DNA of 64,000 nucleotides from positions 351,727 to 415,726 of the forward strand of contig CATKHK010000038.1 in NCBI GenBank assembly GCA_949751835.1. The letters run 5' to 3'. Under the pieces are notes generated by a model, which ran no database searches, was not told where the DNA came from, and worked only from the letters and a program-made list of their open reading frames with translations. This document shows, one piece after another, positions 37,657-59,354 of the stretch. Positions within the stretch are counted from its first letter, which is position 1; every line of letters starts with the position of its first letter. Both the position numbers and the translations under genes were made by a program. Source of the stretch: Blepharisma japonicum. Taxonomy: Eukaryota; Ciliophora; Heterotrichea; Heterotrichida; Blepharismidae.

Positions 37657-39828
37657 TTAGTTCTCGCAGTATTCGCTAAAAACCAGCTCAAATTTATTGT
37701 GAATCTTGGAGTCTGCGATCCAATTCGGGTGCTTTTTTAGATCAACTGGAAAAAGTGGGTCCACAGTTATTCTGAAGACATTGTCAATAAGACCTGGTAT
37801 TAGTGACGAGAGATAGGCACAGCTAAGTTCTAGGCAGGGATTTGTATTGGCTTCTATGAGTCATACGTTATACTCTTCATCGATCATAAAATCATACCCG
37901 AAAAGTTCAAAAGTGTGGAGTCTCCTTTTGGGATCGATTTTCTTATAAACTGACTTAAAAGTATCAGTTATGGTGCTTCTTATTTTTTTAAGGATTTTTT
38001 CATTGAAATTAATCCCAGAATTAATTTCATCTAAATACTCTTGAAACTCTCCATAAGAAAGCTTATTTCCTGGCTCGAACTTTCCATAGTCATCAGATTT
38101 TTTTTGGACTGCGTCATTAGTGAGATGGATATAACGGTTGCTTAATTTTTTAATAGAGTATTCTTTGCAAGAGGTTCTTATATAGCCGTCCTCATAGAAG
38201 TAGCCTTGGATGCATCCATTAATACATGTAATCATCCCAAAGCATCTTATATCAAATTTTCGTTTATATACGAGTAATGGATTTTCTATGTATTTCTGGA
38301 TAATGTAAGTGTGTTTTGATTCTCTCTGTGAATATGATTGCAAAAGTCTTTCAATGTTCTCTATTGATGAAGACACTTTAATACCATTTCCTCTATTTGT
38401 TCCTTCTCCTGGCTTGATAATTCATATATTTTTGGTATTTTTAGATTGCGACTCTGATTCAAACTTATTAAAATAATTTTGAAAAAGCTTAAATTGGGGA
38501 TCTTCCAAGCCTTTTGATATGTGGAAAGTTAAAGGAAGTACTTCAAAAGGATTTGCTCCTATAGACTCATAATATCGCTTTAGGTTTTTGAATAATCCCT
38601 TCTTAGTACACAAATGCCTATTTCCTTCTAGATGATTATGGATTTGAATATTACTATTAGAAATATTTATTTTTGGCTCTATGTGTAAAAATTTGTCTGC
38701 TTGTAAAATTTTTGAATACCCCAACCTTTCTTTTTCTGCCTCGATTTTTCTGGTTAATTTTGAATTTTTTCTTTCTTTTATAAAATCATAATATTTTCAA
38801 TCAGCTAAAGGGAGTTTTTTTATTGTTTTCATATGGATGTTGCTAGTTCAGATTAGCGTAGCTTCTTTTCTAGTCTCAGCCCTTGCCATTCATGGGCGAG
38901 CTCTAAGTATTCAAGAAATCATAGGTGAGTTATTTCCAGGGCCGAGATAGAATTTTACTGACCTTAAATCAGAGTGGGGAAGAGAAATTCCATTACTTAG
39001 TCTTAAGTTCTCCAAGAAGGATAAATATGCGCTTTCTTTAAGTTGCTTATCGTCAATTATTGAAACTTCTGTAGAGCTTATCAGCTTTTTTTCTTTTTTG
39101 CGGGGCTTTAAAAGAGTCCTTATTGGAGTTTCCTCTGTAACTTTATCTAGATTACTTTGTGCATTTTCTGCACTAACTGGCTTTAAAATATAATTCCTCG
39201 TTGTTTCTTCAGGCTTGCTTGTAATCTCTTTGGAGAATTCAATAGAATTAGCAAGCTCACTTAGCAAAGACAGTGCTCTTAAATGCTTATATCGATTGTG
39301 TTTTGGTGTTGTTACTCCCATTACATTGATATTTCGGCTTGTTTGATTTTTCGAATCATGATGGCTTTCAACTGTTTGAATCTCAGGTTTTTTAAATCGA
39401 GGAATCATTGGCCTTTTTTTATTTTTCTTTTCTACTGATGTTGACTTCGGAGCAAAAGACTCTGGAGTTGCTGACTGTGAAAGTCCTTGCGAGGAAAGAG
39501 CTGGCAAGACCGATTTTCAGTGGAAATAAATAGGAACTTCTTCTGGTGGGCGAAGAACTGAGCTTCCTGAGTTGATAAAAATTGAGTTCACTTCATGTTT
39601 ATTCAGTTTAGAGTTCGCTATGCGAGATTCTCTATATACCAACGGAGAAACATCTCTAACATATTTGTTAGAAAGAGGATTCAAAGTTTTTACGAATAAA
39701 CTTGACTGTTGATTACCTGAAATAGTAGTAGAGCGCTTATGTGACTTCGTTGATGAATTTTTGGGACTGAGGTCTGTAGGTAAAGCTTGGTCTAAAAGAT
39801 CTAAATTAGAGAGCAAGGATATTTCCAT
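37657..39828 (-). CDS. Tubulin-tyrosine-ligase-like (TTLL) enzyme
   Basis: A single frame of 723 residues from ATG 39826-39828 to TAA 37657-37659, with TGA-Trp at 39517, 38911, 38422 and 37861. The first 300 residues are Ser/Lys-rich and low in hydrophobics, probably disordered. The TTL domain fills about 340-715: WIIKPGEGTNRGNGI at 469, then the FDIRCFGMI strand, YIHLTNDAVQKK, the FELFGYDFMID strand, and the catalytic metal-binding LIEANTNPC near 657-665. These enzymes add Glu, Gly or Tyr to tubulin tails or related proteins using ATP. The WLIEANTNPCLE end and NRG motif are intact, so it should be active. The exact TTLL class cannot be told by eye. Start shares a 123-bp divergent promoter with the next gene. 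Confidence 0.88.
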
Positions 39829-40548: not shown

Positions 40549-40974
40549 TTAGTTTATTGGGTTCTTATTAAACTCAGCCTTGAAGTCCTCAGTTTGTTTG
40601 ATGTAATTCACAAACGCCCTGACGTTTTTGAAAGCTGGAAGTGCCTCAGCAGGAATGACATACCCAAGTTCATCCTCCATTCTCACTACAAGCTCAACTG
40701 CATCCAAGCTATCTAGGCCATGATCAGGGAGATAACTATTAATAGATAGAGCAGCTTTATTGCAAGTGCGGAAGTAGTTTTGAAGCAAATTGAGGACATA
40801 CTTTTCGATCTCTTCTTCTTTCCTAAGCACTAAGTAGTTTCGTGGAACAATTGTCCCTTCCTTATCATAAACCATAGGGGAAAGTTTGGTCATGTCTTCG
40901 TTATGAGGGAAGGCACTTGCTTGCATCATTGAAGTTGACATAAATCTGAGAGCCACTCTTGGTCGCCAAAGCAT
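40549..40974 (-). CDS. NDUFAB1: Mitochondrial acyl carrier protein
   Basis: A 141-residue protein if started at the ATG 40972-40974. The frame is open for 16 more codons to 41022, but that part is AT-rich, adds a hydrophobic stretch and lies in the 5' spacer, while MLWRPRVALRFMSTSMM looks like a mitochondrial presequence. The carrier motif is HGLDSLDAVELV with Ser89 as the phosphopantetheine site, followed by MEDELGYVIPAEAL, typical of mitochondrial ACP. It serves mitochondrial fatty-acid and lipoate synthesis and is an accessory subunit of complex I. It lies 35 bp downstream of the myosin-like gene on the same strand. TAA at 40549-40551. Confidence 0.88.
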   Translation of the reverse strand: MLWRPRVALRFMSTSMMQASAFPHNEDMTKLSPMVYDKEGTIVPRNYLVLRKEEEIEKYVLNLLQNYFRTCNKAALSINSYLPDHGLDSLDAVELVVRMEDELGYVIPAEALPAFKNVRAFVNYIKQTEDFKAEFNKNPIN

Positions 40975-41009
40975 TTTTATAATAGGGTAAATTATTAGGA
41001 AATTAAAAA

Positions 41010-44000
41010 TTAGTGAGGCCATAGCGGCTGAAGCGACTTGAAGATCTCGTTTTGTAGCTGAGAAGCTTTTCGCAGCTTTCTTTGTCGGTTCTCAGCTATT
41101 TCTCGAGATTTGTCTGAAAGTAAATTCGGCTTTTCAGATATAAAAGAAGTCTCATCAGATTCTTTTCTTTCCTTCGAAGGGGTATAGTATAATCTTTCAC
41201 TGAATTTTATGACGCTTGTAGATCTTGATTTTTTGATATTTGGAGAAAAAGTCAAAACGTCTTTTTCCTTAATGATTTTCTGGTGTACTAATAAATCTCT
41301 ATTTGATTGGTATTGATATTGCTTTTCTTTCATTCTTCTATAAAAATCATTGTAACTTCCATTACTTTCTGATGATTTTTTATAGGAAATGAGAGTAGCT
41401 GTGCTTTCTGATGCTCTTTTTCTTTCCTCTTCTACTTTTTGTGATTTCAAAGTTTCGTACATCTTAAACTTGTCTAGGATATCGAATTTCAAGCTACCGT
41501 GCCTATTGTGATATTTCTCAGCAAATTCTCTTGTTTTTTTGGAAAGTACTGGAGAAAAAGTATATTTTTTTGGAGGGCTTTTGCTGGCAGATTTCATTTG
41601 CCTTACATAATAGCGGTGAGCTGTGTGGAGCATTAAATAAGGACTTACTGGTTCTTGAAATGGAGTGATTTCAACTGTTACTATAGAAGTGACTGAGGAT
41701 TTATATCGATTTCTTATAATAGAAACATATCATCTTTGTATTCTTTTTGCAGCCTTAGTTAATTTTTTGAACCTTTTCCTATAAAATATCTGAACTCTTT
41801 TGATGGCTGCAACGCAGATGCCAATAGGCTTATAAGTTTTCCTAGATTTGTAGCCTCTTCATACTTTTTGTATAAGTCTTGCATTAATAAATAAATGCCA
41901 CAAGTTCCTGAAGTATTTCCTGGAGAGATATCCCCTATAATAGGACTGAATTTTTATAATAATTGGAATAGTGTCTGTGTAGTCGAATAGCTCAAAATGT
42001 GATAAGATTCTTTTGAAAAAATTATAAGTTTTATTTGATGCCAAAATTAAGGAGTTTGTTCTCCTTAATGGCTTATAGTTTGGGCGAATATTTTTAGGCC
42101 ATTTATGAACTTGATTAGAAATATAGGACTTATCAAATGAAATATCAATCTGTGAGTAAGATTTTTCTAAGGCTTTTGCTTCAAAATTATATTCTTGGCT
42201 TCGTATGTGACCGAGAATGAAGAAATATGAATTCGAGTTCGAAATTTGGTTTTCATATTTTTTAGCTATTTGAGAAAAATAATTGTTTGAAACTACTAGA
42301 TGGTTAAAGTCTTCTTGCTTGAGCATAACCAACTCATCATTACAGCGGAAATCTTTTATTTTTAATTTATAACTCACTCATTCAATGACGTCTTGAAATA
42401 AAGACTCATTTTGCTTTGTCATAATTTTCCGTAGCTTTACTATAGGGATCCAAAATGGGAACCCATAATAGTATCAGTTAGCAATAGGCATTAATATTCC
42501 TTTATTTAGTTCTTCACAAAATTCATACTTTGCATTAGAATTAGTTATATCATAGATCAAAAAACAATTAAAATCCAAATGATTCAGCAGGTAATAGAGA
42601 GATTTTTTATGAGTCTCATAAATTGACGTATGAGCGAGATCTGATTCACTACAGATTTTTGGAAGCATTCTTTGCAGTATCTTATTGATTGGCTTGCTTA
42701 TTAGTGGGTAGTAAGTTGATGTCGGCAAAAAATTCTGAGACTCATTGAGGAGGCTGGATACATTATATGATATTTCTCCAAACGAAAATTTTATTCTGCA
42801 AGATAATAAAGAATCAGTAGATATAAAGTCGTTAAAAATAGATTTATTTTGGTGGTTTCCTATAAATTCTTTTCAATATGTTTGAAAATTGCCTGAACTC
42901 AGATTACTTACAAATTGTTCAGGCTTAAATAAACTATCTATAAGGTTTTGGCAATGAGGAACAGATAAATAAGTTATATCAGTTTCCTGATTTTTCATTG
43001 CTTTGATAAGTTCAAAGTAAGATCGACATGACAAGAGTTTTAAACTTTCTAAAGCCCAATTAATGTATAGTCCACCCAAAGAATCTCGATAGTCGAAATT
43101 TGGAAAATTTACCAAGGAAATTGAATATGTTCCCTTATATGTTTCCTCATTTTCATTCTTCGATGAACTTAAGCTTTTTCTTGATTGGATGACATTGCCT
43201 GATAGTTTGTCGAGCATTTCATCAATTTTTGTTACTAATCAGTCAAAAGTCGCCCTATATATCAGCCTAGCAAGATCTAATACCATTGTTTCAGCTTCTC
43301 GCTTTGATCCAGCATTCCCAAAAAAGTCACTAAACAGTTCTTGACTCACATTAAAGGCCCTGCACAGTCTGCTTAAATTTTCGTTTGCTTTTGGGATCCA
43401 TTTTTCCCTATAATTTTGCCCTGCAAGTGTAAATTTACCACAAGTAAATGTAATTTCAAACAGAAGCACTATCATTGCTAAAGTATCTTTCAGTTTTTGT
43501 ATGTCTTGCTGCTTAATTTTAAGCGAGTTCATAATTTCCAGGATTTTTTCACTATTTTGGAGCTCCTTTGATATAAGTTTGTACTTTTGGTCAGGATTGA
43601 GCATAGGATTTGAGGGTACGCTTTTTAAGAGAGAAAAAATATTGTTGAAAATTGGGTAATTTTTGTTACAATTGGTTGATAGAAAAGTTGGGTCAAGAAG
43701 TTTCGCTCTTATAGAAGCGCCAACGAGCCGATACTTTAAGTCGAAAAATACTTGCACGGCAATTCCAGTATAAGTTTCATCAACACTTTGATGAATGCTT
43801 GTGCCAAATAAGTTGATAAGCTTTATAGAATTCTTGACTGCTTGTATAAATAAAGAATTTTGCTTTAAAATTTTTGTGGATTCTTGCTTGCTGGAAAGAT
43901 GCAGCAAGTGATCCAGGTGTTTATCAAGATTTATGTAATGATTTGAACTTTTCCCAAGGTTTAAAATGCCCTGGCTTGTTTGTGTGCTAATTAGGGAACT

Positions 44001-44312
44001 ATAAGCTCTTCTGCTGATGTTAAATAAATCAGGACTTTTTTCCTCAATGTCATTGAAATTTTCATCGCTTTCTCCAATTTCATCAGCATTGTGCTCATTT
44101 TGCACTAAAATTGGGCCTAAGAATGTGTATCTCATTCCTTGGCTTAGCCGAGCGTAAAGCGTTTCCATCATAGGACTATCATGATAATTAAAAAAACATC
44201 CAAAGTTTTCTCTCTCACTTTTGTAAAATCGGTCTTCAGTTAAAGTTTCATTGTGCCAATTGATTTGGCTACCTTTTCATTCTGAGGTTGTGCCATTTGT
44301 ATATGTTTTCAT
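41010..44312 (-). CDS. Divergent myosin-like protein with degenerate ATP site and IQ neck
   Basis: One frame of 1100 residues, ATG 44310-44312 to TAA 41010-41012, with TGA-Trp at 44277, 43239, 42873, 42474, 42378 and 41859. The first 780 residues follow a myosin motor by position: TFLGPILVQNE (motor N-terminus), LFNISRRAYSSL before the P-loop, FFDLKYRLVGASIRAKLLD after switch I, LARLIYRATFDWLVTKID (the relay-side helix) and LGGLYINWALESLK after switch II. The nucleotide motifs are lost: GESGAGKT is GKSSNHYI at 120-127, the switch I NSSRFG is about DETYTG at 178-183, and DIxGFE is about VNFPNFD at 400. Four IQ-like motifs follow at about 789-875 (IQSYYRGYLSRK, IQKVWRGYKSRK, VQIFYRKRF, IQRWYVSIIRNR). 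The tail is short and basic. It is probably a non-motile, calmodulin-binding pseudo-motor. The family call is by eye only. Confidence 0.65.
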
Positions 44313-44404: not shown

Positions 44405-45104
44405 TTAATGCTTTGCTTTCTTGACTGGCTTTCCATCATCGTCTCTCTGCGAATTAACTAATCCGCATAATTTTTCAAAAGTCGGTTTATCTAAGTTATC
44501 CACTTTTATTTGTATCCTCTCAGAATCAAGCTCTTCAAGCGCTCTTTTACATTGATTTTCTACAATTCGTACGACTTCAGCCAAGATATCGTTAGGAGAT
44601 TTCCTTACTTTTTCAGCCAAATCAACCTTGGCCTCAAAGCTTATAACTTCTGGAGGGCTAGAGACTTCTGGCTGAGGAATTGGGGTTTCTTCTCTTTGCC
44701 TTTTCTGAGATTTGCTGCTCATTAATCCATGCTTTTCTAAATACTTTTTAGTTTTACTTTCCATGTGTTCGGCTTGCAAATAAATTGGCTAAATAGATAA
44801 TTACAGATCCGGATTGATTATATGTTTTGCAGTTTTCCCATATAAGATTGACATCTGCAAGTATTTCCTTGACAGAATTGTATTTCTCTGATTTTATCTT
44901 CTTTTTTACCGTTGAAAGGTCCATAGGGCGCTTTATAATCAAAGGGTAGTCGTCAAGGCCGGAGGCTTTATAGTCAACAGGCTTGAGAAACGGAAAAGCA
45001 TCGTTTTGTTTTTCTAGGTGCTTTATCAAATCTAAACTTTTTTTGTAATCTTCTTTCGAAAGGCTTTTCTTTTTAGGCATATCTTGCTTTGACTGGGGAT
45101 CCAT
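44405..45104 (-). CDS. Single-bromodomain BET-like protein with ET-like domain
   Basis: A 227-residue protein from ATG 45102-45104 to TAA 44405-44407, joined across a 16-nt intron at 44789-44804 (sense GTAATTATCTATTTAG), the only one here that is not 15 nt. Splicing restores NQSGSPIYLQAE, the expected acetyl-lysine-binding end of a bromodomain. The domain covers about 18-112 with FLKPVDYKASGLDDYP, the DLSTVKKKI helix and the conserved WENCKTYN. After a Lys/Pro-rich link comes an ET-like unit at about 150-215 (VDLAEKVRKSPNDILAEVVRIV). BET proteins read acetylated histones and recruit transcription factors. Animal BETs have two bromodomains and this has one, as in plant GTE proteins. The start shares a 245-bp divergent promoter with the next gene. 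Confidence 0.87.
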
Positions 45105-47075: not shown

Positions 47076-50000
47076 TTAGAATCTCTTCAGTTGATCGGAA
47101 AGATGTTGAAGGCCTTTCATTACTCCAACAAACTGAGAGTTATCGACATTACTGATAACTCGCTCAACTTTGCTGATTCTTCTGAGCAATTCACTCAATA
47201 AGTCCTCATCAAATTCGGGCTGAGCATGCGCTCCTTCTCTATACTCTTTCAGTAGCTGCGCAGTTTTGATATCCAAGTGCCGCATATCTTTCGGGACTTG
47301 CAGCAATTTTCGCTTCTTTTCCCGTTTTTCTTCCAGTTTCTTCTTCAAGCTCGCTCTCTGTCTTTCCTTTTCTTCAGTTAAAGTGCTTTCTAGCTGCTTG
47401 AGCTCGTTTTGATGTTGGGCTAGCAGCTCCTCCATTTGCTGCTTTGTCAAATTCCCTTTGATTCTCGCTTCTTCTTGCTCTTTTCGTTGCTTATCGACTA
47501 ACTCGTTCTTGATCCTTTCAACCTCAGCCTGCTGTCTCGCTTGGGTCATTTGAATTTCAAGTTCTTCTTGCTTCTCTCTTGCAGCCCTTTCCAAGCTGCT
47601 TTTTTGGTATTCTAGCATGTCCATTCTCTCTTTGGCTTCCTTTTCCACTTGGTTTTGTCTTTGTCTGAATTCTTCATTCAGCTTCTCCATTTCTGGGTTT
47701 TCCCCAAGCCTCCGCATCATTTCCCTCACCTCATTCATTTGCTTACCTAGTAAAAGCAGCAGCTCGTCATTGCATTTTCTTTGGTGATCCCGCCAGTTGA
47801 CTTCAAAGATCTTTTGAGTGTCTTTTTCTATTTCTAGAATTAGAGAAGCTAATAAAGCTTGCTTTTGGCTTTCTGAAGCTTCAGCTAAATGCTTTTCTGC
47901 TCCTTTTATGGCAGCTGTCTTATTTTCCAGCGAAGTTCTTACCTTTTCCAAGTGAACTCCAGCAGCACGGGTAAGCTGCTGATATTGAAGTTCGATAATT
48001 TCTTTATCGTGCTTATCAGCAAATAGTTCTTTTACGGTTTCCGCTTGCTCGTTTATTGGCAGATTCCTTATAAATTCCTCAAGTCTCCTCAAAATTTCTC
48101 CGTCTTCATGCAAGTCGTTGTTAGTTTCGCTATAACTTTCCAAAGCTTTTTCTTTCTTTTCCATTCTTATTCTTTGAATTTCTTGCATCCGCTCAGCTAA
48201 GATTCTTCTTTGGTCTTGCTCTCTTTCCCGATTTGCAGACTCAATTTGAATTTCAATTTTTCTCAGACTCTCCAAGATTTGGCTCCTTTGAGGTGCATTT
48301 GCGGGATTTGACAATGATTTAGCGTATTGCTGCTTTTGGTTTTCTAGTTGAGATCTCGCAGCATCATGAGAAATATCAGATTGTCGCTGTATCTCTTCAT
48401 ACTTTCTGTCCAGGTATCTTTCTTCCGCGTCACTGATTTCTACTTGCTTTATCGGTGAGCTTATAGAAGTAGGCAACGAGTCTTCAAATGAATTAAGGAA
48501 ATCAATATAATGAGTCACTCCCTCTAGAGCTTGAGTAACCTGCCGATACTCTTCATTCGCAAAATCGATTCTTCCTTGAGCTTGAGCTCTTCTTACACTT
48601 CTTTTTTCTTCAATTCTCTTCATGAGCTCTTGATGCTGGATACCTTTTTGGTCTTTTAAGTTATTTTCCATAAATTGCATTTGCTGCTCATATTGGATTT
48701 TTAGTTCTTCTTCTATTCCAGGATTTTTTCTTATATTATCAAGCATTTGCTTTCTCATATTCTTAGCAGAGTTGCCAAATACCCTTTCGCGGGCTCTTCT
48801 TTTTTCTTTCTCGTATTCTTTTTCTGCTTGTTGTGCAAAATTTTCAGCATCTTTAACCTCTCTTTGCATTCTATCCTTGGCAAGCTTTTCTTCCCCTATC
48901 AACAAATTTTTCTTTTGCAAAAATTCTCGCCTCCTCTTGTTTCTTTCCTCAATTCTACTCTTAAGTGTGTTTTGAGTACTGACTCTGTCTTCAGCTAACT
49001 GAGCTTCAAGATTCGTTATGTTTTCATTAAGCTCATCTAGGAGAGCTTGCTTTTGGCCTCCCTTAAGCTTTGCATCTTTCTCAATTTTTTCTTGCAGCTT
49101 TTTTACTGTTGAAGCCTCTTTAAGACTCAAAAATTCAACATTGGCAGCTTTTGAATCTTTAGTAGGAGAGATTTGATCTGGGTTTGTAGCATCTGAGATT
49201 ATACTTTTTAGATCTCTAAGGGACTCCATTAAGCTTGCAAGATCTTTTGACTCTTTTTCCTTTTGAGTTTTCATGCGACTTCTCATCAAGTCAGAGAGTT
49301 CTAAAAGTTTTTCGTAAATCGCTTGGAAGAGTTGTGGGTTCAGCATTTGTTTTGGCGTAGCCTGTTCAACAATCAGAGCCTCAGTACCTGCTCCTTGGTT
49401 TTGAAGCATGTCCCTATAGATTTCAAGATTTTTCTCTATAGCTTTTTTATGAGCTCTTCTGTGGAAAATCTGCACAGTTGATAAAAATATGACTAAAGCC
49501 AAAAATACCATCATGATGAATAAGAAACTTTTCCAGTCAATTTCTTTATTAACTTCATGGCTTTGATACACTCCAACCTTTGTCACTGTTATCGAGCTTC
49601 TTTCTCTAATTTGTGGTGAAGCACATTTTTGGTTTAAACCCATGACGCTGATAATCAGAATATTATTTGAGTCAGACTTAACAGCAAATACATACCGCCC
49701 AGGCTCTCTAAAAGTATAACCGAAACTTGTTATGTTTTGTCCCCCCTTTAGGACTTGAGCAAGCTCTAAAAAGGGCCCATAGTCAAAATCTGAGTTTGTG
49801 TTAAGTAACGAATCCTTGAGATAGTAAGGATAGTCGTCTACTGTAGGAATAGAGAAAACCATTGTCTCTCCTAGTTCTAAGCAAATGACTGGATTAGTTA
49901 GGTTTAAATTATTTTCCAGCCTTCTACTTTTTGTGCTTCTTGAAATGAATGGAGTTGGCTGTAAATTTGAAGTAAAAGCTTTCGAATTACTATCAATTTC

Positions 50001-53000
50001 TATTGTTTTGACATTGCATGAATAGCCATCTTGACAATAAATAATCCCACTGTATCCACTTGAGCTCTGGAAATCAACAGTTTCTGTTCCATAAATTTTT
50101 CTGTTGCCTATCTTTGTAACAGAAATAACTGAAAATAATCCATCAGTATTTAGCTTTACAGTGGTTAAATCTTCTTGGCAGCTTGAATCGCAGACATCAT
50201 ATGTGCTTGGAGTATTTTTGCAAAAGCAAATGCCTGAATCTATGTTTCTTTTTCCTTTTCCTCCTTGGCACTGACTTGAGCAGTCATTTGACTGCACACA
50301 GTTTCCAGTAAAGTCTCTTATATAGCCACTTTGACAAAGTGGTCGAACCAGACTAACACAGTCTTGATCAGAATCATCTTCAGAGGCATCTGTTCCAAGG
50401 CTATAAAACGCATACCCAGGTTTGCATCTGCATGTGCCATCTCTTTTCATGTAAGACCGATTGAGACCTATACAGCTGCAAGTAGTTTGGCCAGTATCCG
50501 CTCTTGCATTTGGACCACATGGAAAGCAGCCTATTTGACCCTCAATGTCTGAATAGGTATTTTCTTGGCAAGGCAAGCAATCTCCTACCGACCTACCTGA
50601 AGTTTCTTCAGCATACGTTCCTGCAGGGCAAGGGATAGGGGATGACACTCCTTGAGGGCAATAGTTTCCTGCAGGGCATGGATATCCACCATCTGTTTCT
50701 AAACTTTGAGGATTTGGCTTAGAAGCACCACTAGAGCAAATGTACCCTGCATAACATTTTTTGCAGCTATTCTCGGTCAAATCTGCATAAAACCCCGATC
50801 CACACGGAACACAAGCTTGCCATTCTGTTTTTCTTTGTGAATATGGAATGAAAACACTGCCAACAGTGCAAGTAATTGGATATTCGCTTCCTAAGGGACA
50901 ATAGCTGCCAATATCACAAGAATAAGGAGGAGGTGGAGATGTCAGGACATCTGGAGTTTCTGGACAGTAAAACCCTGGAAAGCATAGAGCTAATTCTGTC
51001 TGGTTATGATTGCATAGATAGCCTCCTGGGCAAGCTCCTTCAAAAGAACTGCCTGTAGGACACCAAGTCCAAGATTGGCAAGGATTAATAGTGGTTGCTC
51101 CAGCTAAACAATAAGAGCCTGCAGGGCATTGGTCACAGAGAGCAGCACTTGGAGTTGCAGACTTCGCAGCCCATGTGCCTGCTGGGCATGGTGTAGAAGT
51201 TGAAGAGCCTTCAGGGCAATAATCGCCAGGCGGGCATGGAAAACGCTTATAATCGCCAATTCCTGTGCTAGTGCACAAATACCCCGCAGGACATGCTTTG
51301 CACGTTGAAATACTTGTTGCTTTAGTAACTGAAGAATATGTAAAAGCTGGACATCACGAAGGCTCATTACTGGCTGCTGGACAATAAGCTCCCATTGGGC
51401 AATCATAAGGAATTGGGTCTCCAGGTATACAGTAGTATCCTGCAGTGCAGAGCTTGCAGTCAGAAATCTGTGTAGCTCCTGGAGAGGTGGTGAATTCTCC
51501 ATATGGGCAGGGAGTTGGCAAGGTTGATCCTAATTCGCAATAATAGCCAGTGGGGCATCTAACGCCATACACACTGCTTGTTTTAATGTCATTTGGTGTT
51601 GGAGAAGAATTTCCCCCTTGGCAGAAGTATCCAGCGTTGCAGTTTCCTACTATGAACCCATTTAAACAGTATTTTCCAGTTGGGCAAGACTTGCAGTTGC
51701 TTGGTGATTGAAGTCCAGTGATCTCTGAGTAGGTTCCATCAGGGCATTTTTGCTTTCCAACACCTTCAGGGCAGTAATAGCTGGCTGGACAAATTGTAGG
51801 AGCAGTTGCTCCCATTCCACAATCAAAGCCTATTGGGCACTTTAAGCATGCAGATTGACCTGAAAAAGGATTATAGTAGCCGATACTGCATTGGGGTTTA
51901 TTTCCAGGCTCATAATTTCCACCAGAGCAATAGTATCCTGGTTCGCATTGGACAGGCAAATTAGTTCCTCCTGCGCATTTAAATCCAGATGGGCAGGCAA
52001 AGCAAGATGATTGACCTTTTATGTTATTGTATGTGCCAATAGGGCAAGATGTGGATGCTGATGCGCCAGTTTGGCAATAAGCACCAACCGGACAAATTCC
52101 ATCTTTCGGCTTATTCGTTATAGATCCAGCCACACAGAAAAATCCAGCAAAGCAATCTCCAGTATATCATGTAGCTCCCAACACATTACAATATTTTCCA
52201 GCAGGACATATCAAACAATCAGAAACGTCGTTTTGTTGTGCGTTTGTCGAGTATGTTCCTATTGGGCATGGGATTGCTCGATCTGTTCCGCTAGGACAGT
52301 ATGTGCCTGCTGCACAAGGACTCCCATGGGAAGTATATCATGGCGTTGGGGTTGAAGACCCCAAAAGACAAAGATATCCATCGGCACAGCTCCCTGAAGG
52401 GGCTGCTAAGTTGCTAGAGCCGCAGTATTTTCCGCTGGGACAAGTGATTGGTGTTGACGAGCCTGCAGGACAATAGTACCCTGAAGAACAGCTCTGTTGG
52501 CAAGAGCTAGAGGAGCCTGCTGTGCAATAGCAGCCAGCACTGCAAGTCCCTGTAATAGTTGCTTTTCCTGATCCGGAACAGTAGCTTCCAGGAGGGCATT
52601 GCAAACATGCGTCTGAGCCTGTTCGTCCTTGAGTTGGATTATACGTCCCTGATCAGCATGGATAGCTTGCATAATTTGCAGTTCCTTGGGGGCAATAATA
52701 GCCAGAGGGGCAAATTGTTGCTGCAGTCAATGCATTTCCATTGCAATAGTACCCTTGAGGGCATGATAGGCAGAGTGATTGCAATATCTGGGGCTGGTAG
52801 GTGCCTGGTGTGCATGAAATTTGATTGGATGAGCCAGCGGGGCATTTATATCCTGCAGCACACCCATAGGCATTGGGGGTTTTTGATCCAGCAGGGCAGT
52901 ACCAGCCAGCGTCACAATTTCCTGAAACCCATTGCAACCCTGAGCCTTGGCAGTAAGATCCTCCTGGGCAGGTTCAGCAAGCAGCAGACGATGTCTGCCC

Positions 53001-56000
53001 CTGATATTGATTATAAGTCCCTGAATGGCAAAGAACAGGAACTATGCTTCCAGTCTCGCAATAGGAGCCAGCAGGGCAGATATTTCCAGTGGAATCCATT
53101 GGAGAATCTGAAATCGCCTTGGAAATACAATAATATCCAGCACTACATTTTCCGCTGGGAGTTGCCAAATAATAGCTATTGCAGTAATACCCCCCATCAC
53201 ACCTTTTCATTTCAGAACTCCCACCAGGACAGTAATAGCCTGGTATGCATGCAGTAGGGCTTGAGGAAGAGCTGCCTTCAGGACAATAGTAGCCTGCATT
53301 ACAGCTTCCTGTGTACCAATTAAGACCGGTTCCTGAACAGTATTTGCCTGCATTACATTTTAAACATCATGTAGAGCTCTGTGCACCAGTAATAGGGTTA
53401 TAGGTTCCACCTGGGCAAGGATGATCATGGCTTCCTTGAGTTCCTGGAGGGCAATAATAGCCAGCTGGGCATTCGTTGCTGATATAGTTGGATGATCCTT
53501 GGGGACAATAAAATCCAGCTGGGCATTGGATGCACGAAGATTGACCTTTGTTTGGCTGATAATACCCAGCAGAACATAGAGTTTCTTGATAAGCCCCAGC
53601 TGGACAAAAGTGGCCAGCGGTGCAAATGGTAGCAATTGGGTTAGGGACTTTAGTTCCTGTAGGACAATAATACCCTGCTTGGCAGTGCCCACTCATAGTA
53701 GAGAGGCCAAGCCCCATGCAGTATCAGCCTTGGTCGCAAGGTGTGCATTGGCCTGAGTTTGATAGATAATACGATGCTCCGTATGTTCCAGGAGGGCAAG
53801 GAGTTGGTGCTCCACTTTGCGTAGGGCAATAATAGCCAAGAGGGCACCTCCCATATTTTCCTGATACATCACCAGGAGTAGACGAGCTAGCTCCTCTAAG
53901 GCATCAGTAGCCTGCACTGCATTGGATCATTTCGGAGGAAGCTTTTGTGGCTGAGCTAGGACAGGCAAATCCACTCGGGCAGTCCACGCAGTCATTCACA
54001 GATTTCATTCCAGTTCACAGATTGTAAGTTCCTGTGGGACACGAAGACTGAGAACTTCCACCCCCAGAACAATAATATCCTTTCCCACAGATTGTAGGAG
54101 CAACCATTGCATAGTTTGGACAGTAAAATCCTGAAGGGCAGCTAAGGCATGTGCTTTGCCCCTGGGCAGGATTATAACTCCCAGGCCAGCATTGATGCTG
54201 AGTGCTATCACTGGCGCTTGAATAATAGCCAGCCTGAGCAATATATTGACTGTCAGTTGAAGCACCTCCAGTGCAATAAAATCCAGCTTTGCAGTCGCCT
54301 GTATATGAACTAGTGGCTCCAACGCAATATTTCCCTGCAGGGCATGATTTGCAATCTCCTGAGTTGTCATTTCCATATGTATCTAAATATTTTCCGGGGC
54401 TACAGTGAATGGGCACTGCTGTTCCTGCAGGACAGTATCCTCCTGCTGGGCAGTAAGTATAGGAGCCAGAAGATGCAGTTTGCCCATAAGGACTTGTATT
54501 GCTACCAGAGCATCAATATCCAGCATAGCATTGGCCGCTTACGGAGCTTTGTCCAGAATATTGGCAGTAATAGCCTGCAGGGCATGATATGCAATCAGTT
54601 GATGCAGTCATTTGTGTGCCAGGGCTGAAAGATCCTGCAGGACAGTATGTATATCACCCAGATCCAGCAGGACAATACATGCCAGCAGGGCATACACTTG
54701 GCGTCGTTGTACCGGCAGGGCAATAAAATCCTGCAGGACACTCTCCACAATCCCCTTGAGACGTCCCCCCAGTAAGCATTCTAAAAGTTCCTGCGCTGCA
54801 AGGGTAAGCTGTTGAGCTAGTGCTTCCAGCAGGGCAGTAATACCCTGAAGCACAAACTCCAGTTGGCGAAGAACCTCCCGCAGTGGAAACATAATAGCCA
54901 GCTGGTACGCTTACACAATCTGATGATGAAGATGCTCCAGGCGCCTCTCGTAGAGAACCAGCTCCACACGGTGTTGGACTTGACGTTCCAGAAGCACACC
55001 AGCTCCCTGCAGGGCATCGATCATAAAGATTGGTCGGATAATGATCAGTTCCAGTTGGACACCACAATCCTGCTGGGCAAGTAAAGCTCCCCATTTGAGA
55101 GTCTGATGTGTTATTTCAAGGACAATAATGCCCAGAAGAGCATGGAGTGCACGATGATGCCCCAGATGATGAATACTTTCCCGTTCCACAAGGAATCAGT
55201 GCCGAGTTTGCGTTTGATGGACAATAATAACCTGCAGTGCATGCTATTTGACTTGCAGTGCCTAATGCTGTTGCAGCATATCCTGCTCCTGAACGAGTTG
55301 GCTTCTGCGAGCCTGATGGACAATAGTAGCCTTTTGGACAAACAATGCATTCTCCACTAAACTTGAGTCCGCTGTAAGGAGAATACGTTCCAGCTGGGCA
55401 AGCATAGCTTGTGCTGCTTGCTGTTCCAGGGGGACAGTAATAGCCAGGCTGGCAACTTTTTGGAGTGTTTCCACCTTGGCAAAAAAATCCAGTGGGGCAA
55501 GTTGAACACTCGCTTTGGGCAGTCAAATAATTTTTGTTAGACCAAGTTCCATCGCTGCAGACTGTAGGAGCTGAAGCGCCTTGGGGGCAGTAATAGCCAG
55601 CTGTGCATGGAATTTTGGGCTGTCTTGAATCAGCAGTCCCTGCTGGGCAGTAGTAACCTGCAGGGCACTTAATTGTGCAATCTGCAGAGAGATTTGAATC
55701 CTCACATATATAGCCTGCTGATATTTTCATTGGGGGAGATGCTGAAGTGCAATAGTAGCCTGACCAGCAAGGAAGTTGAGTATTCACTATTCGGGGAATT
55801 GGGCAATAACTCCCAGCAGGGCATCTAGTGCATGACGAAGAATCAGAAGGTGTTCCTATTAAATAATACATAGGACATGGAGTTGGCTGTATTGAACCTT
55901 TTGGGCAGTAATAGCCAGAGGGGCAAGCATAGCAAGCAGTTGAGGCTGTTGCCCCAAGTCCGAAAAAATAAGTTCCCAAAGGGCACTGCAGCGGAGTGCT

Positions 56001-59000
56001 AGCTAAACTTGAATCGCAGTAATTTCCAGGAGGGCAGACTAGTTGCCTTGGAGAGCCCGCATCGCTAAAATATCCTGGAGATACTGTTAAGCAGCTGTTC
56101 GAACTCGTTTGCTTCCACAATGGATTATAAGTAGATACAGAGCAGCTTAGTGGCTTATCTGATCCTGCAGGACAGTAGTGGCCGGGAGGACAAGGAAATT
56201 TTTGATAATCAATGGTTCCTCCTGGGCAATAGTAGCCTTGGATACAGCTCATGCAATTAGTTCCGTAGTAACCACTACTGCAAGGTTTCGGCCATGTCGC
56301 ATATTGACTAATTCCTCCTCCAACATTAACGGAATTGCAGCTGAACCCTGGAGGACAGGGATATTGTTGACTGTTTGAAGAGCCTTGATCACAAGTGTAT
56401 TGATTCGCACATGGCGTGCAGGTTGCCGTTCCTCCAGTTGAGTAAGTTCCAAAAAAGCAAGGATATGGCGGAGCTACTGGAGATGGACAGAAATAGCCTG
56501 GAGGACAGCTTAAACACTGTCCAATTCCTCGGTATTGGCCCAATGAGCACGATGTACAAACTCCAGCCCCCTGTGTAGCAATATATCCAGGAGGACAGGG
56601 AATGGGAGGGATGCCTTCCTTGCAATAATAATCCACAGGACATTTAGTGCAGGTGTTTTGGCCATGAAGTCACCCGCCTGAGCAGGAATACTGAGATCCC
56701 CCAGTACAATAAGACCCAATAGGGCACTCAACACAAGATCCTAGTCCTGCAGTGCTGTAGTATCCTTCTGGGCAAACTCCTAGATCTTCACTTCTGGAAC
56801 AAGCATGACCTGCTGAGCATTGAGTGCAAGAAGTACTTCCAGGAGTTGAATAATATCCGATACTGCAAATGGTCATAGTTCTTGACGTTGGGTCAGAGCA
56901 AGCCCAGCCTGCGGGGCATTTTTCGCAGTGAGTTCTCATGACTGAAGGAATTGTCCCTGAAATGCAGTTGCTGGGAGCTTGATCAGGCCATCCAATCTGA
57001 CTGCCAGACAGCGTTGTGCAAATGGTCGCGCCATTGGTATTTGCATAGGTCCCTAATGGACACTCTGCAGGTGGTGAGTCCGTTCTTGGGCATGCATATC
57101 CAGGGGTGCATTGAATGCAAGATGTAGCAAATCCGAGTGAATATCAGCCTGAAGAGCAAGGCTGCCGTGAAGTTCCGCCTAGGCAGTAATATCCTGGTGG
57201 ACATGGTAAACAAATAAAGAATCTAACTGGGCTGTAAAATCCTGGACTGCATGCATTTTTGGTCACAGGATCAGGACACTCATATCCCTCAGGGCAATCA
57301 GAACACCCTCCTCCATATGAAGCAATTGTATAGCTTCCATAGCTGCAAGAATTCATAACCAGAACATCCAGGCTTTGCCCAATTGAAAAATTATCAATGT
57401 TGTCATAATTTAGATCAGAGGACGAAACAGAGTGTGTGAGCCTTAAGGAATATGTCAAGTCTCTTTGTATACCATCGCGGGTGTAAGTAACTGTAACTGT
57501 TTGCCCGTTCCCAGCTCCTGCACCATATAAGTTAAACGAAGAAGGGGAAACTGAAAGGGGCGAAGCAGCTGAAATAAACACAGTCACAGCAGCTGACGGT
57601 GGTAGGGACAAATAAACCATATAGGTCACGGAATTGGTATAACTGCCTTCATATATTGCTGGTCAGCTTGTCTGAACAATTTGATAGGAACTAGAGCTTG
57701 CGCTTACAATAATAACTTCTGCACTTGGAGCAACTGCATACTTGAATTTAACATCAGATGTCGAAATTTGGTGATTTATACTTATTTGCTGATATGAAAG
57801 AGTCCCAATTGTGCCTTGGTTCGCCTTGTACCAGACAGCTTGGCCTGACGACCAGTTAGATGAGTCAAAAGTCAGTGAATTTGGTGCACTCAAAAATGCT
57901 GACTGAGTTGCTATTGTCACCGAGCTTGATGGAGGTTGGGACAATGAAATATAGTATGTGGCCCAATTTCCTTCTTGGGCATAAAATGTTCCGGACAGCT
58001 TTATCATTCCAGCAGAGTTTGCTTTTAGAATCGTCATCATCAAATACCCGGAGCCACTTGATCCATAAACCTGGTCACATCCTGAAAACAGTCCATAGGA
58101 CTGATAATTCGCATTTCCTGACAAGATATGATTGATTTTTATTGCAGTTTGCATGGGTGATGAAGAAGTAAAAGCACTCGATACGATGGAGAGTGTTACC
58201 GATTGCGGAGTATTGTAGTTGGATGAAGAAAAAGTGACTGTTGAAGGAGAAACTGTAATTTTCGAAGTGTCTACGCTGCTGATGCTAACTTGGACGTTTG
58301 ATGTGGGCTTTACATTTAATTGAAGGCTGTAAGTAAAACTAGAAGTCGATGAGTAGACTTGGGGCTCAGTAGGCAGATTGAATATCAGTGCTGCGGTTCT
58401 GATAGCCGTAAATGGCGTGGAGACTGATAATGAATAGGCACTGCAGGTTGCTGTCATTGTAAAAGCTCCAGGGGAGATACTTGAAGGATTTAAGTAAATT
58501 GTATTAAAGTTTGCTTGACCACTTGACGAAGTCAGGGTAGCAGTTCCTCCTAAAGTTCCTGAATTTAAGGTTAATGCTATGCTAGCAGCATTATTTAAAA
58601 GGTTCCCAGCTGTGTCATAAAACCCAACTGTCACTGAAAATACGTCTCCAATTCCGATTTGCCCCAGGGCAGAAATCTTCATTGAAGATGGCGTTGAAGG
58701 CGCTGAAACAGTGACTTGCTTTGCTGTTGGGACAATACTTGTTCCATCAATAATAGGGTATAAATAAAAATTTCCAGGTTTATTGATAGATAAAGAACTA
58801 AAAGTAGCAATTCCATTTGAAGTAGAAATTGTTGTTGTCCCACCCAGAGTGGCATTGGGATCGTCTCCATAGAGAGTCATAATGATTGAGATAGGTGAAT
58901 TGTAAGGATTGCCAAGAAAATCATACAAATTTATAGATCAAGTGCCTCCTGCCACTCCAGATGTGAGGCTAGATGTTCCTGATATTGTCATATAATAAGG

Positions 59001-59354
59001 ACCTGGAAGTGACACCGCAAAATTTGAGGAAAGAACGGGTTGGTACGAAGCTGAAAAAGCAACTAAATAGCGAGTTCCAGCTGTTCACGGTGATAAGTTA
59101 GTGAAAGTAGCTTGGCCTGATGAAAGAGCAATTCTTGAAGTTCCAGTTAAGCTCCCAGAATCCAAAACAACGATAACTGTCTCACTGCTTGATTGCAGAG
59201 TTTGAGAGGCGTCATCTGAGACTAGAGAAACGGTGACTGATGGGATTATGCCACCAAGAGTCGTCTAAATTACTTTTACAGAAGTTGGCTGGGTCGTTCA
59301 TTTCAAAATATTTCCTGCATAAGCTAAGGAAAAGAAATACCAAAGAATTACCAT
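47076..59354 (-). CDS. Giant single-pass surface protein with GCC2/GCC3-type Cys-rich repeats
   Basis: A 4087-residue protein spanning 12.3 kb, all in one frame from ATG 59352-59354 to TAA 47076-47078, with one 15-nt phase-0 intron at 59265-59279 and many TGA-Trp codons. I checked every junction for TAA/TAG and found none. A signal peptide (MVILWYFFSLAYA) opens it. Residues to about 660 are Ser/Thr-rich beta-sandwich modules. About 665-3050 is an almost unbroken series of Cys-rich units of the form C-P-x-G-Y-Y-C-P-x-G, as in GCC2_GCC3 / ephrin-receptor-like domains. A cupredoxin-like module precedes one membrane helix at about 3270-3293 (FLFIMMVFLALVIFL). The last 790 residues are cytoplasmic coiled coil rich in E, K, R and Q. 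It probably links the cell surface to the cortex. No kinase domain is present. Confidence 0.9.

Follow-up and report, generated by a model that had tools for sequence, protein, structure and literature searches.

In Myo18A and Myo18B, which show negligible ATPase activity and for which a structural role has been proposed, the switch II glutamate is lost; this residue and the switch I arginine form a salt bridge, which is thus expected to be prevented (PMC11112018, in the excerpted text). In Trypanosoma cruzi, the myosin H-derived protein MyHd has been reported to be without the ATP-binding P-loop and was judged likely inactive (excerpts of PMC7300353). In ciliates, the myosins of Tetrahymena and Paramecium have been described as divergent and unclassified, with IQ motifs, coiled coils and RCC1, FERM or MyTH4 domains, RCC1 tails being reported for those of Paramecium (PMC2375034, in part), and those of Tetrahymena have been assigned to the alveolate class XIV (PMC3942036, in part). 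The word “P-loop” is absent from the available text of these last two papers, where no P-loop loss is mentioned for ciliate myosins. Additionally, no P-loop-less myosin of Blepharisma or other heterotrichs was found in the titles or abstract openings of the open-licence literature, among the matches listed.

Here we consider a gene of Blepharisma japonicum whose product, P0001, probably contains a catalytically dead myosin head that has been retained as a structural domain. The gene lies at 41010-44312 on the reverse strand of the window (the whole stretch of 64,000 nucleotides that was analysed), and all coordinates given below for its parts are window positions on that same strand. The Blepharisma genome has been described as having 66% AT, a size of 41 Mbp, introns of 15 and 16 bp and UGA reassigned to tryptophan (PMC9942806, in the portion available), and the assembly searched here comprises 45.2 Mb in 224 contigs. 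With TGA read as tryptophan, the gene encodes 1100 amino acids followed by a stop, and no intron is needed. Its 1100 codons are open under code 4 and include 7 in-frame TGA, because of which standard-code gene finders would split it, as the first-pass annotation had anticipated. A run of this length free of TAA and TAG has a log10 probability of about -29 at the local base composition (about 6% of the codons would be expected to be TAA or TAG), the other five frames of the locus hold 39-60 stops, and an in-frame TAA is found 18 bases 5′ of the ATG. The sole in-frame candidate for a 15-nt GT..AG intron (GTAATCTGAGTTCAG, at residue 469) was rejected, as the residues that it encodes align with the paralogs of P0001.

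The window has an AT content of about 67%, and for the most part its G+C fraction lies at about 0.25-0.38. Between 50 and 58 kb the fraction climbs to 0.44-0.48, with flanks at about 0.3-0.38; this stretch falls within a 4029-residue frame (47076-59165, reverse strand) that shows cysteine-rich repeats, then an apparent membrane segment and, finally, an extended tail resembling a coiled coil. Three other frames, also on the reverse strand, were observed near the gene. At 44405-45104, a bromodomain-like frame and a C-terminal extension become one gene, presumably BET-like, when a 16-nt intron is removed (44789-44804, GTAATTATCTATTTAG). A 723-residue frame at 37657-39828 is assumed to encode a tubulin-tyrosine-ligase-like protein. 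Directly downstream of the P0001 gene there is a short frame (40549-41022), the longest reading of which overlaps the end of the gene by 13 bases; its DSLD motif is, we assume, acyl-carrier-protein-like.

The derivation of residues 36-632 of P0001 from a myosin head was confirmed on sequence comparison. When P0001 was used as a phmmer query, the best match was myosin-9 (residues 44-370, E=3e-8), and five myosin sequences were obtained at E <= 6e-5. Five weaker rows, with E values from 0.027 up to the limit of 10, included non-myosins, and those for phosphoenolpyruvate carboxylase and a designed binder were taken as chance. A profile of P0001 and its two closest paralogs matched 151 PDB sequences at E <= 0.01 (best E=1.1e-36); the 60 of these matches that were listed are myosins or myosin fusions, and in them the best stretch is confined to the first half of the head. 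This N-terminal, or upper, half comprises residues 36-370 (43203-44207). The lower half, which runs through the SH1/converter region (WYYYGFPFWI), comprises residues 390-632 (42417-43145), and a profile of it (A3) matched seven PDB sequences at E <= 10, all of them myosins, with myosin-VIIa as the best (E=9.1e-6). In hhalign, an alignment (A2) was matched to the canonical myosins over 584 columns through the converter, with a probability of 99.6; the profile-profile comparison of the second half alone with the canonical myosins gave a probability of 20.8 (E 0.0011).

An earlier suggestion that motif-based surveys would miss this gene was borne out: Pfam Myosin_head (PF00063) finds no match in P0001 at E<10, missing the curated cut-off, and a whole-genome search with the same model lists four other genes, P0001 being absent. 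An HMM built from the heads of those other four myosin genes of the genome, with P0001 left out, scored the P0001 head at 216.7 bits (149.2 for the N-terminal half and 70.0 for the C-terminal half), against a best value of 9.2 bits among 1000 shuffles, 837 of which were scored. When only the two canonical myosins were used to build the HMM, it gave 17.8 bits for the head, with shuffles reaching up to 5.3 bits (626 of 1000 scored), and -6.8 bits for the C-terminal half, so that the second half of P0001 is tied to canonical myosins mainly via its paralogs. AlphaFold2, run on the single sequence, gave a mean pLDDT of 34.6 and a pTM of 0.28. A motor of about 780 residues had been proposed in the first-pass annotation; its myosin descent is upheld, but the alignable head is limited to residues 36-632, and residues 633-770 (42003-42416) form a weakly conserved linker, in which 27/135 positions are identical to P0002 and 21/135 to P0003.

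These two paralogs belong to a set of at least five myosin-head genes found in the assembly by searches with P0001, P0003 and PF00063. P0002 (contig C9; L012 1055-4699) matches residues 45-1099 of P0001 with 29% identity (E=1.3e-90), and P0003 (contig C24; L013 816-4742) matches residues 36-669 with 27% (E=2.1e-44), a further match being found in the IQ region. In a tree of 556 gap-free columns, P0002 and P0003 were grouped (97) and the three paralogs were placed far from the canonical pair, P0001 having the longest tip (1.12, against 0.46 and 0.84 in the paralogs). NCBIfam yields nothing for P0001 and only weak matches, far below the cut-off, for P0002 and P0003, and a scan of prokaryote genomes for relatives returned 595 pattern matches, none of which was confirmed. 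The initial interpretation, then, pointed in the right direction but was incomplete in scope, as P0001 is one of three full-length paralogs with the same layout.

The loss of all three nucleotide-binding motifs, which had been claimed for P0001 at the outset, is evident in the MAFFT alignment of the five proteins (P0001, the two divergent paralogs and the two canonical myosins of the genome, C32 and C18). The P-loop, GESGSGKT or GESGAGKT in the canonical pair, is GLSGSGKT in P0002 and GESGSGKT in P0003, and it is replaced in P0001 by GKSSNHYI (residues 120-127, 43932-43955). Switch I is NDNSSRFGK in both canonical proteins, NLESTCCGM in P0002, NLESTACAM in P0003 and SVDETYTGI in P0001 (residues 176-184, 43761-43787), while switch II, DIYGFE or DIFGFE in the canonical pair, is DFPGFR, DFPGFA and, in P0001, NFPNFD (residues 402-407, 43092-43109). 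All three motifs are intact in C32 and C18. The switch I arginine and the switch II glutamate are missing from P0001, P0002 and P0003 alike, and consequently only the further losses (the K and T of the P-loop, the N and S of switch I and the D and G of switch II) are special to P0001. In addition, positions once held by small or catalytic residues are occupied by bulky ones, namely H, Y and I in the P-loop and both E and Y in switch I. The segment known as NPxxxxxxY is unrecognisable in all three paralogs, the alignment being uncertain there.

In terms of counts, P0001 retains 4/21 of the canonical-pair residues in the nucleotide motifs, against 12/21 in each of P0002 and P0003, and 53/234 elsewhere in the head, where the paralogs retain 60/234 and 56/234. 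If only the strictest columns are considered (those in which all four remaining proteins agree), 3/11 are kept by P0001 in the motifs versus 27/43 elsewhere (one-sided Fisher p=0.038), although two looser choices of columns gave differences that were not significant (4/13 versus 34/73 and 6/19 versus 97/224; p=0.23 each). As P0002 and P0003 keep the P-loop without the switch I arginine and the switch II glutamate, the decay is graded and P0001 is its extreme, and both paralogs are candidates for ATP-binding, non-hydrolysing myosins.

The account that we favour is the following. P0001 descends from a divergent myosin that was duplicated into at least three genes of this genome, two copies of which have retained the P-loop without the residues of the switch I-switch II salt bridge. 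P0001 has also lost the further residues named above from all three motifs and should not bind Mg-ATP; indeed, we consider it very likely that it has lost the use of ATP. Having a shortened HCM loop, it would not be expected to walk on actin. Calmodulin or some other EF-hand light chain would be expected to bind to its IQ neck, and its tail would anchor the protein to some cytoskeletal or cortical structure. P0001 would most likely serve as a scaffold that works independently of ATP and carries calmodulin-like light chains. The parts of this reading deserve different degrees of confidence: the binding of light chains is likely, and the scaffold role is plausible.

The HCM loop is a main actin contact in myosins. 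The profile alignment of the three paralogs shows a gap of 12 residues at this loop against both PDB myosins printed, and in the five-protein alignment the corresponding segment has 28 residues in each paralog, whereas the canonical proteins have 42 and 40 there. The exact site of the shortening is uncertain, as the MAFFT gap at the loop itself spans 5 columns relative to C32 and the remainder falls further on. Loop 2 and the helix-loop-helix are unrecognisable in the same alignment. Since the genome contains actin-family genes (33 matches), a missing track does not explain these changes on the actin-binding side. The presence of such genes would also suit a head that, although dead, binds actin nucleotide-free in a rigor-like state and crosslinks filaments without ATP, and a P-loop mutant of T. 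cruzi MyoF, K198Q, has been described as rigor-like (PMC7300353, in the excerpted text). By contrast, an HCM segment that is 12-14 residues short in all three paralogs, together with the unrecognisable loop 2 and helix-loop-helix, speaks against such a tether, and we regard it as unlikely.

Past the converter, Pfam recognises IQ in P0001 (E=3e-11) in two stretches. Four IQ motifs had been counted before, and four IQ-like repeats are indeed visible, but the Pfam score covers only those two stretches. The first (IQSYYRGYLSRK, residues 785-802, 41907-41960) is the best stretch for Pfam IQ, and the second (IQKVWRGYKSRK, 41823-41882) rests on a reading of the sequence and on the alignment of the paralogs. 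The third (VQIFYRKRFKK, 41754-41804) and the fourth (IQRWYVSIIRNR, 41700-41750) are degenerate, their positions being conserved in the paralogs. The neck is the stretch in which P0001 is most alike to both paralogs. With P0002, identity amounts to 46/97 in the IQ region, 102/327 and 70/243 in the two halves of the head, 27/135 in the linker and 53/227 in the tail; with P0003, the values are 34/100, 88/325 and 65/242, 21/135 and 55/227, respectively.

The tail (residues 872-1100, 41013-41699) contains two F-x-P-x-I/L motifs (FSPVL at 919 and FSPNI at 1022), as do the tails of the paralogs, and some other gene products of the genome show a weak resemblance to it. An F-x-P-x-I repeat was also observed in other proteins of this genome (L022 1258-2517, L025 and L028, the last with six copies). 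The architecture and the tail motifs shared by the three proteins, two of which keep what P0001 has lost, would be compatible with P0001 pairing with P0002 or P0003 as the silent subunit of a mixed complex. Nevertheless, the tail of P0001 is without any named Pfam domain (no family at E<10), and this arrangement seems to us distinctly improbable.

It could also be argued that the P-loop of P0001 has been displaced rather than lost. A pattern scan would flag GILNLGKS (residues 115-122), which fits [AG]x4GK[ST] and is offset by five residues from where the loop is expected, and any match to this pattern is carried by only 2.15% of 2000 shuffles of P0001. If it were a working Walker A, nucleotide binding would have been kept. 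However, P0001 has one residue fewer than P0002 between the conserved Q114 and the DHL that follows the loop, from which it follows that ILNL is the strand ahead of the loop (presumably the beta strand that precedes the P-loop in myosins). As GILNLGKS sits in the segment aligned to this strand, we take it as fortuitous, and P0001 has also lost N and S from switch I and D and G from switch II. A displaced but functional P-loop is, hence, very unlikely.

Alternatively, the gene might be a decaying pseudogene, as its long tip branch could suggest. Against this, the frame runs for 1100 codons without TAA or TAG, and codon usage resembles that of the paralogs (r=0.94 with P0002). Moreover, comparison with P0002 reveals conservation at codon positions 1 and 2 that greatly exceeds what shuffles give (z 14.3 and 19.1), and this constraint holds in the head, the neck and the tail taken separately. 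Such constraint dates from the duplication onwards and is not specific to the time after the loss of the P-loop; a pseudogene appears highly improbable. Finally, a chance resemblance to myosin, to which the lack of a Pfam Myosin_head match at E<10 might point, is contradicted by phmmer, the paralog matches, the PDB profiles, hhalign and the four-head HMM, and is scarcely conceivable.

Returning to the dead head retained as a structural domain, a broader proposal may be put forward tentatively, although we hold it to be possible rather than probable. The three genes would form a heterotrich family in which hydrolysis and then nucleotide binding, as well as actin binding, were lost stepwise, leading to a calcium-sensing scaffold independent of both nucleotide and actin, whose head would serve as a rigid binding module only. 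As the Pfam-based census of this genome misses P0001, ciliate pseudo-motors may be undercounted.

Among the described systems, MyHd of T. cruzi is like P0001 in having a myosin-like head without the P-loop, a likeness that is drawn from its description. It belongs to a different lineage, and neither an IQ neck nor an F-x-P-x-I tail is described for it in the excerpted text of PMC7300353. P0001 was called unusual in the first-pass annotation, and so it is, but the report of MyHd as a P-loop-less protein means that it is not unprecedented. The class 18 myosins, with their lost switch II glutamate, resemble P0002 and P0003. Myo18 keeps its P-loop, one consensus residue being named as changed, whereas P0001 is without the P-loop lysine; similarly, some Myo18 isoforms have a PDZ domain, but Pfam finds none in P0001 (for Myo18, PMC11112018, in part). 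Having lost its P-loop, P0001 falls outside the class 18 pattern of a near-normal P-loop with altered switches. The ciliate myosins are, like P0001, divergent, and can be likened to it by description only. The canonical proteins C32 and C18 have heads colinear with that of P0001 through the converter and, unlike it, intact nucleotide motifs; C18 (L015 1658-6415) has, according to Pfam, RCC1 repeats in its tail. Thus, dead myosin heads were already known, and what P0001 adds, in one species, is a ciliate family whose sister genes have decayed to different degrees. With three such stages represented among the paralogs of a single genome, a natural series is available for the study of what a myosin head can still do without ATP.
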